From NCBI GenBank assembly GCA_027064085.1, contig JAMOQH010000195.1:1-5047 (forward strand): DNA of 5,047 nt, read 5' to 3'. This DNA comes from a bacterium. Lineage in GTDB: Bacteria; UBP6; JAFGXH01. The notes beneath the pieces are model-generated. The model did no database searches and was not told where the DNA came from. It saw only the letters and a program-made list of their open reading frames with translations. Of the stretch, positions 1 through 5,047 are shown one piece after another (positions within the stretch are counted from its first letter, which is position 1; each line of letters opens with the position of its first letter). Position numbers and translations under genes: made by a program.

Positions 1-1551
1 ACAAGTAAAACTACCATCAGTATCTGTACAATTTTGTGTACAATTATCAGTTCCTGCAGTACATTCATCTATATTATCACATGTTTTACCATCAGCATTT
101 AATGTATAACCATCATTACAAGAACAAGTAAAGCCTCCAACAGTGTTATTACAATTTTGAGTACAATCATCTGCATTTGTTGCACATTCATCTATGTCAT
201 CACATCTTCTTTCATCTGTATTTAATGTATAGCCCTCATTACAAGAACAAGTAAAGCCTCCATCTGTATTATTACAGTTTTGAGCACAGTTATCAGTGTT
301 ATTCTCACATTCATTTATATCTATACAATTACCATTACCATCGTCAGTATAACCTAAATCACAATGACATTCAGCAATACCATTTGTATCATCATCTCTA
401 CATATGGTTTTATGTGATTCTGTACATGGATTGTTTTCACAAACAGCTACAACAGTGCAAGTAACTCCGTCTCCTTCATATCCACTTTTACAACTACATT
501 CAAAACCTGGATTTTGATCTGTACAATCAGCATGTATGGAACAGCCACCGTTGTTAGTGTTGCATTCGTTTATATTATCACAAGTTTTGCCATCAGCATT
601 TAGTATGTATCCTGTTTCACAATAACAAGTAAAGCTTCCTGTTGTATTTGTACAGTTTTGGCTACAGCCATCGGTATTTTCTTCACATTCATCTATATCT
701 GTATCACAATTAATACCTGTCCAACCCTCTAAGCATTCACAGGTATAAGAATTGATATTATTTTGGCAGATACCATGAACACATGGGTTATCTGCACATT
801 CATTTATGTCATCACAAGTTTTACCATCAGCATTTAATATATAGCCATTATTACATGAACATGTAAAGCCACCATCATTATTGCTACAAATTTGATTACA
901 GCCATCAATATTTTCTTCGCATTCATTTATATCTACATCACAATTAATTCCTTTCCAGCCCGTTGTACAAGTACAGGTATAAGTTCCTATTCCATCAGTA
1001 CATGTTGCACCATTCTTACATGGTTGATTTTCACAATCATTTATATTTCTACAACTAAAACCATCTCCTTCATATCCTGGTTTACATGTACACTCATATC
1101 CTCCACGATTATTAGTACATATAGCATTTACATCGCAATTATTTGCCTCATTGTCTGAACATTCATTTATATCCAAACAAACACCATTTTCATTTTCTTT
1201 ATAGCCTGGGTTACATGAACATTCAGCAATACCATCATGGTTTTCATCTTTACAAACATTTTTACCAGATTCTTTACATGGGTCATTTAAACAAGCATCT
1301 ATAATGGTGCATGTTTCTCCATTTCCCTCATAACCACTTTTACAAACACACTCAAAACTTCCAGCTTTGTTATTACAAACAGCATTTACATCACAACCTC
1401 CGTTATTGATAGCACATTCATCTATATCATCACAAGTTTTATGGTCATCATTTAATACATAGCCATCTTCACATGAGCATTCATAACTGCCATTTGTGTT
1501 AGTACATTTTTGAGAACACTCGCCATTGTTATTAGCACATTCATCTATATC
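1..1551 (-). repeat. Tandem array of EGF-like coding units with higher-order duplications
   Basis: This part of the lipoprotein gene encodes residues 175-691. By cysteine spacing, the domains fall into four types: A (C-x6-C-x3-C, then YxLN..GKTC endings), B (GGC-type, ending GYEGxGxxC), C (non-canonical, C-x4-C with a Dx[DN]x[DN]G loop) and D (short, ending GWxGINC). Reading from the N-terminus the order is A-B-C-B-D-A-D-A-B-C-A-A-A. Blocks at 1162-1551 and 310-699 both encode A-B-C and are offset by exactly 852 bp. Positions 577-1047 encode D-A twice in tandem (79 and 78 residues). The left end is a run of 123-bp A units; the units at 61-183 and 184-306 match at about 80% of positions by hand count. 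This is divergent coding repetition, not a CRISPR array. Confidence 0.9.
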
Positions 1552-2073
1552 AACACAATTCCCTGTTCCTTCTGAGTCAAATTCAAAACCTGTATCACAA
1601 ATACACTGACCAGTATTACATGTTGCATTATCTCCACAATCTATCAATGAACAAGGATCTGTATCATCAATAATACATGATTCTCCATCTTCTGAAATTT
1701 TGTAACCACTTTCACAGGACCATAAGCATTCAGCAGGTTCTTCCCAGGTTTTAGTTTTTTGCTTCCATTTTATAATAACTTTAGCACTAGTTGATATTGC
1801 ATGTTCAGGTGCATTATCCATACAATCAACTTCTTGAGTTCCTTGTAAACAACTACCATTTATGCATACTTGATCATCTGTACATTTTGGAGTACATATG
1901 TTTTCTGTTTTTATACAGATACCATTATTACATGTTTCATCATTGTGTGGGCAAACACCATGGACAAACTGTGCCGAACATTTTTCTGCTGGCTTAGTGT
2001 TAGCACCATCACATGATGTAATTAATAACATTAATGAGGCTATTACAACAAACAAAAAACTTGAATACTTCAT
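1..2073 (-). CDS. Giant Cys-rich lipoprotein with a calcium-binding EGF-like repeat array (3' end outside the window)
   Basis: The frame is open without a stop from ATG at 2073 to the left edge: 691 codons, C-terminus missing. GGGAGGAG lies just upstream (2083-2076) and supports this start. Residues 1-21 form a lipoprotein signal (MKYSS, hydrophobic run, lipobox ITSC with lipidated Cys21); residue +2 is Asp. Residues 32-75 hold two four-cysteine modules, the second reading CTDDQVCINGSC. Residues 84-133 form a Trp/Cys module (W103, W110, CLWSC, GY). Residues 141-173 are a divergent six-Cys EGF-like domain. From residue 175 there are 12 complete EGF domains plus a 13th cut by the edge. Most begin D/N-I-D/N-E-C and carry the C-x-[DN]-x4-[FY]-x-C signature of calcium-binding EGF domains. 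About 95 of the 691 residues are Cys. Inference: a periplasmic or surface-anchored, disulfide-stiffened rod, possibly an adhesin. The EGF assignment is very secure; the function is unknown. Confidence 0.93.
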   Translation of the reverse strand, partial: MKYSSFLFVVIASLMLLITSCDGANTKPAEKCSAQFVHGVCPHNDETCNNGICIKTENICTPKCTDDQVCINGSCLQGTQEVDCMDNAPEHAISTSAKVIIKWKQKTKTWEEPAECLWSCESGYKISEDGESCIIDDTDPCSLIDCGDNATCNTGQCICDTGFEFDSEGTGNCVDIDECANNNGECSQKCTNTNGSYECSCEDGYVLNDDHKTCDDIDECAINNGGCDVNAVCNNKAGSFECVCKSGYEGNGETCTIIDACLNDPCKESGKNVCKDENHDGIAECSCNPGYKENENGVCLDINECSDNEANNCDVNAICTNNRGGYECTCKPGYEGDGFSCRNINDCENQPCKNGATCTDGIGTYTCTCTTGWKGINCDVDINECEENIDGCNQICSNNDGGFTCSCNNGYILNADGKTCDDINECADNPCVHGICQNNINSYTCECLEGWTGINCDTDIDECEENTDGCSQNCTNTTGSFTCYCETGYILNADGKTCDNINECNTNNGGCSIHADCTDQNPGFECSCKSGYEGDGVTCTVVAVCENNPCTESHKTICRDDDTNGIAECHCDLGYTDDGNGNCIDINECENNTDNCAQNCNNTDGGFTCSCNEGYTLNTDERRCDDIDECATNADDCTQNCNNTVGGFTCSCNDGYTLNADGKTCDNIDECTAGTDNCTQNCTDTDGSFTC

Positions 2074-2102
2074 TACTCCTCCCAAAGTATAATAACTGTT
2101 GC

Positions 2103-2229: not shown

Positions 2230-3105
2230 TTACACAAATCCATTTTCATCTAAAAATTCTTCAATATACATATTTGTAACTTCAGGTTGTTCAATAGGTG
2301 CAGTATGGCTTCCCCACTTTAATATTTTTAATTTAGCATTTGGAATAATTTTAAACATCTTTATTGATAAAAAAGTTGGTGTCATTTTGTCTTTTTCTCC
2401 TGCAATAATAAGAACCGGTACTTTTATTTTAGGTAAAAAATCTAAAGTTGAGTGTTTAATTGCCGATTCTAACATATAGCCAAATGCTTTCATGCTTAAT
2501 CTATCTCTAATATCTTTTAAGTAGGGCATAAAGTCTTCTTTTTTTATCATGTCGGCATTTAATTCACCCTTTGCAACAAAACTGTAAGTAATATTATTAT
2601 ATGGAATAATTTTTTGCATTTTTTGAAGAAATGGCTTATGTGGTTTAAGAATAAAGTTAATTATCATTTTAGCAAATGGCTCAAATTTATCTGTCCCATG
2701 GTAAGATTTAAATAATTTTCCATAACTTCCACAAATAGGAATTAGGGCTTTTACATTATTTGGATACTGTCTGTAGAATTCATAAATTGTTTGGACTCCC
2801 ATAGAATGGCCTATCATAATAGCTTTATCAACTTTTGCATCTTTTAGAACTTCATATAAATCTTTTACTGAATTTTCAATTGTTACTGTTGAACAATCTT
2901 CAGGTTCAGGACTTCCTCCATGGCCCCTAAAATTCATGTGTAGAATCTGATATCTATCTTGAAAATATGGAATAATATATTTCCATATAAATCCCATAGT
3001 GGCAATTCCATCAACCAAATAGAGAGTTTCTTTTCCTTGACCTAATTTTTCATACCATATCTCTGCACCATCAAAACTTTTTATTGTTTTTTCAATTCTT
3101 TTCAT
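2230..3105 (-). CDS. Alpha/beta hydrolase fold protein
   Basis: This 291-residue protein has the size and layout of a single-domain alpha/beta hydrolase. The nucleophile elbow GHSMG (residues 99-103) gives Ser101, the acid is Asp239 in AGEKDKMTP, and the base is His267 in WGSHTAP, so the catalytic triad is complete. FRGHGGS (59-65) is the conserved segment before the elbow. The usual HG oxyanion motif is replaced by DG in VDGIATMG (31-38). A helical cap probably covers residues 130-215. There is no signal peptide, so it should act in the cytoplasm. The ATG at 3105 is preceded by GGAG (3115-3112) with good spacing. It lies inside the end of the upstream heme lipoprotein gene, overlapping it by 14 bp in another frame, which points to translational coupling. 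The fold covers esterases, lactonases, C-C hydrolases and haloperoxidase-like enzymes; the substrate cannot be told from the sequence. The family assignment is secure. Confidence 0.92.
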   Translation of the reverse strand: MKRIEKTIKSFDGAEIWYEKLGQGKETLYLVDGIATMGFIWKYIIPYFQDRYQILHMNFRGHGGSPEPEDCSTVTIENSVKDLYEVLKDAKVDKAIMIGHSMGVQTIYEFYRQYPNNVKALIPICGSYGKLFKSYHGTDKFEPFAKMIINFILKPHKPFLQKMQKIIPYNNITYSFVAKGELNADMIKKEDFMPYLKDIRDRLSMKAFGYMLESAIKHSTLDFLPKIKVPVLIIAGEKDKMTPTFLSIKMFKIIPNAKLKILKWGSHTAPIEQPEVTNMYIEEFLDENGFV

Positions 3106-3859
3106 ATTTTGCTCCAGTTTTTATCCAACCTATGATCTTTTCCAATTCATATAGTGGAATTAAATCATTTTGAGGCATTTTATCACCATAAAAATTAATT
3201 CCCATTAATTTATTTATTAAATAACTGTTTTCTGTATCATCAGCTATTATGTAAAACTTGTTAGTTTCTTGATTTTTATTTTCTGTGAGATATTTATATA
3301 ATTCTTTTTTAGGCTTTGTAAAATCTAATTTATGGTTTTTATTATGGCACTCAGAACATCTTCTTTGTAAAAATGTATATACATTCTTATAAGAGTATGA
3401 ATTTTGATTAAATGTTTTTTTACTAAAATATTGATTATTTGTTTTAAATGAAAATTTATACTCTTTATCAAGAGCTTCACCATATATATTAGTAACATCT
3501 TGTGTTATTGTGCAGGTATATTTTACATAAGGTATAAATGGATAAAATGGAATTATTTTAACTAAATCCCCATCATCATAACTATACTTGTATAAATATA
3601 TAAATGCTTTTTTATCGCCTGACTTACAAGAAACTCCTTTATAAAGCGAACTTCTTGATACTTGTGAATTAAATTTGATTTCAAGGTTTGATGTAATATC
3701 TATTTCTTGATTTTCTAAATTAAAAGATATTATTTTAAGTTGAGCTAGCTTAACTTCTCTATATTTTGAATTTATTTCTTCTCCACAAGAGATAATAGAG
3801 AGATTTAACATGAAAAATATTATATATATACTTTTTTTTAAAACAAATAGTCTTTTCAT
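3092..3859 (-). CDS. Ig-like / cytochrome c lipoprotein
   Basis: This 255-residue exported protein starts with a basic N-terminus, a hydrophobic stretch and the lipobox SIISC (lipidated Cys25, Gly at +2). Residues about 40-140 look like a bacterial Ig-like domain of the Big_5 type: LEIKFNSQVSRSSL, then Y-T-C-T-I and an ending KFSFKT; Cys78 and Cys116 may form a disulfide. Residues about 158-250 hold a single c-type heme site, CSECH (168-172), then SYLINKLMG, GDKMP with Met228 as likely distal ligand, and EKIIGWIKTGA. This arrangement resembles heme-binding lipoprotein domains common in myxobacteria and Planctomycetes. The ATG at 3859 has no clear Shine-Dalgarno sequence but keeps the whole signal peptide. 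The gene overlaps the downstream hydrolase by 14 bp. Role inferred: an envelope electron carrier or redox sensor; partner unknown. Codons 7-15 contain an A8 tract next to a (TA)5 run. Confidence 0.85.
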   Translation of the reverse strand: MKRLFVLKKSIYIIFFMLNLSIISCGEEINSKYREVKLAQLKIISFNLENQEIDITSNLEIKFNSQVSRSSLYKGVSCKSGDKKAFIYLYKYSYDDGDLVKIIPFYPFIPYVKYTCTITQDVTNIYGEALDKEYKFSFKTNNQYFSKKTFNQNSYSYKNVYTFLQRRCSECHNKNHKLDFTKPKKELYKYLTENKNQETNKFYIIADDTENSYLINKLMGINFYGDKMPQNDLIPLYELEKIIGWIKTGAKYEKN

Positions 3860-4719: not shown

Positions 4720-5047
4720 TTAATCTTTTGATAAATTAGAATCTTCTTCTTTTATATCATCTGTAAACTCAGGATATAATTTATGAGCACATGTTGGACA
4801 TAAACTATGGCTAAATTGTGTATCAGAGTTTTTTGAAATATAATGTTCTATTTGCTCCCAATAACCATCATCATCTCTAACTTTTTTACATGATGAACAA
4901 ATAGGTAAAAATGAAGATAATTGTTTAACTTCATCTATTGATTGTTGCAATTCTAATATTAATTTTTTACTTTTTTTCTCTATTTTTTTTCTATTTTCTA
5001 TTTCTAATGTTAGTTTGTTTTCAGCTTCTCTTCTTGTAAGTTCATAG
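4720..5047 (-). CDS. C-terminal part of a signalling protein (histidine kinase/PAS/receiver type) with a CxxC...CxxC tail
   Basis: The frame is open from the right edge to TAA at 4722-4720, giving 108 residues; the N-terminus lies outside the window. Residues 1-45 (YELTRREAEN onward) are Lys/Glu-rich with heptad-like spacing and probably form a coiled-coil linker. Then come LPICSSCKKVRDDDGYW and SHSLCPTCAHKLYPE, placing Cys50, Cys53, Cys83 and Cys86, with His80 nearby, as a likely zinc-binding knuckle. From general knowledge, this tail is recurrent at the C-terminus of PAS-domain, receiver and diguanylate cyclase-type sensors in deltaproteobacteria and other environmental bacteria; its role is not established. 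The extreme C-terminus is acidic. A TTG at 4950 could be read as a start, but the tail family and the open coiled coil upstream argue that it is internal. Which catalytic domain precedes it cannot be seen. Confidence 0.8.
   Translation of the reverse strand, partial: YELTRREAENKLTLEIENRKKIEKKSKKLILELQQSIDEVKQLSSFLPICSSCKKVRDDDGYWEQIEHYISKNSDTQFSHSLCPTCAHKLYPEFTDDIKEEDSNLSKD

Follow-up and report, generated by a model that had tools for sequence, protein, structure and literature searches.

A bacterial lipoprotein with tandem EGF modules of the animal calcium-binding type, a probable stalk of the cell envelope

Introduction

The closest described counterparts of the protein analyzed here are animal ectodomains built of EGF_CA and cEGF modules, namely those of LDLR, LRP2, NELL2, Notch1 and fibrillin-1. 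Among bacterial proteins, comparison can be made with the Leptospira surface proteins LenA and LenB and with TraA of Myxococcus xanthus, whose Cys-rich repeats were proposed to form a stalk presenting a recognition domain at the cell surface (PMC3325183, PMC6372800). Our literature search found no paper directly on prokaryotic EGF arrays.

The window studied here, 5,047 nucleotides long, is the whole of contig C195 of a draft genome (3.65 Mb, 195 contigs, 94.7% complete) from a sparsely sampled bacterial phylum. A preliminary description, made from the sequence alone, reported a lipoprotein gene with at least 13 calcium-binding EGF domains at one edge and proposed that its product is a calcium-stiffened, disulfide-rich rod on the envelope, either acquired from eukaryotes or part of a bacterial EGF lineage.

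Results

The EGF lipoprotein gene is read on the minus strand from an ATG at 2073 and continues through 691 codons with zero stops (2073..1) up to the contig edge, so that its 3' end is missing. The unbroken frame, Shine-Dalgarno sequence and lipobox reported previously were all recovered (Table 1). The N-terminus (MKYSSFLFVVIASLMLLITSC) has the n-region, h-region and terminal Cys of a bacterial lipoprotein, as judged by sequence pattern rather than by a dedicated predictor, and cysteine accounts for 95 of the 691 residues. Four genes on the same strand lie upstream, all bacterial-looking, among them an SdhC-type subunit, a Big_5 lipoprotein and an alpha/beta hydrolase. The GC3 of the EGF lipoprotein gene (0.145) lies within the range of these three neighbours (0.14-0.21), in line with the AT-rich codon use noted earlier. 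The Big_5 lipoprotein gene (3092-3859, minus strand) encodes a single CSECH haem motif near the C-terminus and overlaps the start of the hydrolase gene by 14 bases. The fourth, at 4720-5046 (minus strand), is a C-terminal fragment without Pfam match and carries a zinc-ribbon-like CSSCKK...CPTC motif after a coiled stretch, resembling the tails of signalling proteins.

Table 1. Features of the EGF lipoprotein gene in the window
Feature	Position	Strand	Basis
Shine-Dalgarno-like GGGAGGAG, 2 bases 5' of ATG	2076..2083	-	sequence
EGF lipoprotein gene, 691 codons, without 3' end	1..2073	-	open frame up to contig edge
Type II signal peptide, lipobox LITS-C (residues 17-21), Asp at +2	2011..2073	-	sequence pattern
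Cys-rich N-terminal linker, residues 22-78, common to paralogue C164	1840..2010	-	comparison with C164
Undescribed Cys4 domain (A3), residues 79-133	1675..1839	-	sequence comparison
EGF-like 1, without DxDEC calcium motif	1555..1659	-	Cys pattern
cbEGF 2	1432..1551	-	sequence pattern
cbEGF 3 (EGF_3 type)	1309..1428	-	Pfam and pattern
EGF-like 4, non-calcium; units 3 and 4 form a block repeated as units 10-11	1177..1305	-	Cys pattern
cbEGF 5	1051..1173	-	sequence pattern
cbEGF 6 (Notch-like short type)	940..1047	-	sequence pattern
cbEGF 7	814..933	-	sequence pattern
cbEGF 8 (Notch-like short type)	706..810	-	sequence pattern
cbEGF 9	580..699	-	sequence pattern
cbEGF 10	457..576	-	sequence pattern
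EGF-like 11, non-calcium, resembles unit 4	325..453	-	Cys pattern
cbEGF 12	202..321	-	sequence pattern; modelled
cbEGF 13	79..198	-	sequence pattern; modelled
cbEGF 14, truncated by contig edge past its fourth Cys	1..75	-	sequence pattern

Cys spacing defines 14 EGF-like units, which bears out the earlier count of at least 13: 10 complete calcium-binding units ([DN]-x-[DN]-[DE]-C), one calcium-type unit cut by the edge and three without a D-x-D-E-C start. The pattern [DN]-x-[DN]-[EQ/D]-C with a central [DN] and an aromatic residue likewise marks 10 complete units. All three Pfam families suggested for a search matched the protein, namely cEGF (7e-69, 11 stretches), EGF_CA (PF07645; 1e-64, eight stretches, 215 bits against a curated cut-off of 27) and EGF, as did FXa_inhibition and EGF_3. 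The hydroxylation-type motif C-x-[DN]-x4-[FY]-x-C, pointed out previously, occurs 11 times; 2000 shuffles of the residues yielded 0.12 on average and never more than 2. One to two residues separate each Cys6 from the next calcium motif, a linker length usual in tandem cbEGFs. Units 12-14 were modelled with AlphaFold from six rows (mean pLDDT 69), and in a structural search with this model EGF pairs of LRP2/LDLR ranked first (E 7e-6). From their sequence, the modules are predicted to bind calcium.

The missing 3' end is an assembly break. Genes with EGF_CA run off the contig edge on five of the 10 EGF_CA-bearing contigs of the genome (C195, C164, C67, C185 and C170), and in paralogue C164 (L011:3-400) near-identical tandem EGF units stand right at the edge. 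We attribute such breaks to the tandem units of 123 bases, which are 85% alike. A stop just left of the window, named earlier as a finding that would weaken the proposal, is not there; the C-terminus lies beyond the window, as stated, and the contig itself ends. The last 130 bases of the frame overlap no other contig end in the genome. The 5'-cut gene on C170 was considered as the missing 3' part; it is not assignable to C195, C164, C67 or C185 in particular, and no join is claimed.

Between the Cys-rich linker and the first EGF-like unit lies a phylum-specific, undescribed domain of about 56-70 residues with four near-invariant cysteines. Most copies share a Q-T-W-x-G-x-x-W-x-P core, and the end follows C-x-[FWY]-x-C-x3-Y. 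No Pfam family reaches its cut-off on this Cys4 domain, the nearest being FXa_inhibition, through its C-terminal half (E 0.004); a fold search with a model from just three rows weakly hit EGF-like and sushi-like structures (Z no higher than 3.1), which we do not interpret. Within the phylum, 26 of 28 genomes have copies, as many as 82 each; outside it, one of 358 genomes does, and none was found in the viral contigs searched.

This distribution ties the EGF lipoprotein gene to the phylum and argues against an assembly chimera. Although the gene sits where a 5-kb contig of a draft, metagenome-type assembly ends, it has a bacterial Shine-Dalgarno sequence, a lipobox and an uninterrupted frame, its same-strand neighbours (SdhC-type, alpha/beta hydrolase) are bacterial, and the 30-kb contig C164 encodes a 51% paralogue that shares its N-terminus. 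We therefore regard chimerism or eukaryotic contamination as an extremely improbable explanation of the gene.

Of the 28 genomes of the phylum, 19 contain EGF_CA, and each of the 10 genera is represented among them; a single genome has as many as 57 matches. The 14 control genomes have none. Within a sample of 61 genomes, the window protein found a match in one of the 33 outside the phylum; relatives also occur in the metagenome-assembled genomes JAGLDR01, CALMRE01 and JAKLIW01. No full-length orthologue was found, including in both other genomes of the same family, so turnover of the EGF repertoire appears to be rapid. A plasmid search returned no EGF match. On a 127-kb IMG/VR contig, an EGF-like match with 38% identity was seen (L104:4001-4273).

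Similarity to animal EGF proteins is high (E 4e-32 between the last 110 residues and LRP2; around 1e-28 between the protein and Notch1 or NELL2), as would be expected had an animal EGF gene been acquired fairly recently and then expanded. However, EGF_CA spans every genus of the phylum, codon use is host-like and the phylum-specific N-terminal domain lies in the same frame. Moreover, none of 16 animal domains came closer to any of the 10 complete units than that unit's best bacterial match. The animal panel was small: 13 domains came from PDB alignments, and three (LDLR A, LDLR B and one fibrillin) were entered by hand as yardsticks. Such an acquisition followed by expansion thus appears highly improbable.

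In a tree of individual EGF domains (109 rows, 40 columns, four starred branches), the rows fall together by EGF subtype (7 changes versus 48 after shuffling) and those from animals lie dispersed, so that the origin is not readable from it. The two origins offered by the preliminary description consequently fared differently. An old bacterial repertoire is favoured over recent acquisition because of the phylum-wide spread and the phylum-specific N-terminal domain, whereas the tree does not separate an animal from a bacterial root. Recent transfer from eukaryotes is unlikely, in agreement with the earlier view that any transfer would not be recent.

The proposed search for Dsb-type oxidoreductases revealed a VKOR-DsbA fusion of 392 residues on C154, which makes disulfide formation plausible. 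Across the 28 genomes of the phylum, VKOR is confined to three, all from the family of the window, and DsbB is absent from all. Most of the 25 genomes that have neither VKOR nor DsbB nevertheless encode the Cys4 domain and EGF_CA many times over. An Asp/Asn beta-hydroxylase (PF05118), also suggested earlier, was found in none of the 28 genomes; control genomes were equally silent, so that its absence is not established.

Seven relatives in the genome carry EGF modules N-terminal to a C-terminal head. According to domain matches, the heads are an RCC1 propeller (C184), PLDc_2 (phospholipase D; C95), DUF285 (C118), Endonuclease I (C141), SBBP propellers (C166 and C179) and DUF1554 (C170). Six of the seven have a lipobox, C170 being cut at its 5' end. 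In an S8 protease on C194 (L089), the EGFs instead adjoin a C-terminal 'SSCNY-TM-KR' tail. Either way, the EGF block separates the anchor from the head, and it is mainly for this reason that we read the EGF array of the window protein as a stalk.

Alternatively, the array itself could be the adhesive or receptor surface, binding cells, particles or a host and lacking a head, like Notch and fibrillin ectodomains. It mixes three EGF subtypes (Notch-like, fibulin/LDLR-like and EGF_3-like), more than a mere spacer needs, and no other EGF array seen in the genome is as long. The six lipobox relatives and C170, however, bear their heads past the EGFs, and the lack of a full-length orthologue even within the family does not point to conservation of a binding surface. 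We consider this alternative doubtful.

Tails of the SSCNYx/GCDY-TM-KR type, MYXO-CTERM-like, were noticed on five proteins (L014:1079-8185, L089:976-3669, L089:3-887, L089:3699-5987 and L090); the four scanned gave no NCBIfam CTERM signal match. A protein with beta-barrel, TSP_3 and OmpA domains and TraB architecture (L014:8203-10194) directly follows a giant of 2369 residues, whose domains are of the lectin, cadherin-like, EGF_CA and TSP_3 types.

Discussion

A disulfide-bonded, calcium-stiffened stalk carrying a C-terminal head is, in our judgement, the best explanation of the EGF lipoprotein, and probably the right one. The protein would be exported and anchored via an N-terminal diacylglyceryl-cysteine, followed by the short Cys-rich linker, the Cys4 domain and a tandem array of 14 or more EGF modules. 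The modules would be oxidized in the periplasm by the VKOR-DsbA fusion, and calcium at their joints may stiffen the array into a rod of about 40 nm. Such a rod would keep a binding or catalytic head, presumably encoded past the contig edge, off the membrane. The rod with a C-terminal working domain proposed in the preliminary description gains from the same layout in intact relatives and from the oxidase, its calcium part following from sequence motifs. On the other hand, the C-terminal part may lack a head, leaving a pure rod, and paralogue C24 has a cbEGF near its C-terminus and no known head. Furthermore, by the E. coli Lol rule Asp at +2 leads to inner-membrane retention; with Asp at +2 of the lipid Cys, surface exposure is not given.

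More broadly, we tentatively suggest that this phylum may use an animal-like cbEGF kit together with its own Cys4 domain as exchangeable stalks for many surface enzymes and propellers, most members having neither VKOR nor DsbB. How disulfides form in so Cys-rich a phylum becomes a question in its own right. If our reading is true, the Cys4 domain would be a new phylum-marking domain, and the EGF arrays would offer a simple system in which to test cbEGF rods and give the EGF family an outgroup among prokaryotes.

The window protein resembles TraA in having a Cys-rich repeat region proposed as a stalk. In TraA, however, a PA14-like variable domain stands at the N-terminus and a MYXO-CTERM anchor at the C-terminus, whereas the window protein begins with a lipobox, has true EGF modules and gives no Pfam match to PA14, which places it outside the TraA family. 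With LenA and LenB the likeness lies in the DUF1554 head of the EGF fragment C170, which matches these proteins in part (60 bits, far short of the family cut-off of 300); in this fragment, rather than in the window gene, an EGF stalk precedes DUF1554. Neither LNR, TB or LDLR repeats among the Pfam matches nor the Notch traits (LNR/NRR, transmembrane segment, ankyrin repeats) were found in the visible 691 residues, from which the C-terminus is missing. The ectodomains of LDLR, LRP2, NELL2, Notch1 and fibrillin-1 share with the window protein the module sequence, both motifs, linkers of one to two residues and the predicted fold, and differ from it by its bacterial lipoprotein anchor and N-terminal Cys4 domain. 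If the stalk reading is true, a bacterial lineage would have built modular surface proteins of EGF stalk and head in parallel to animals.
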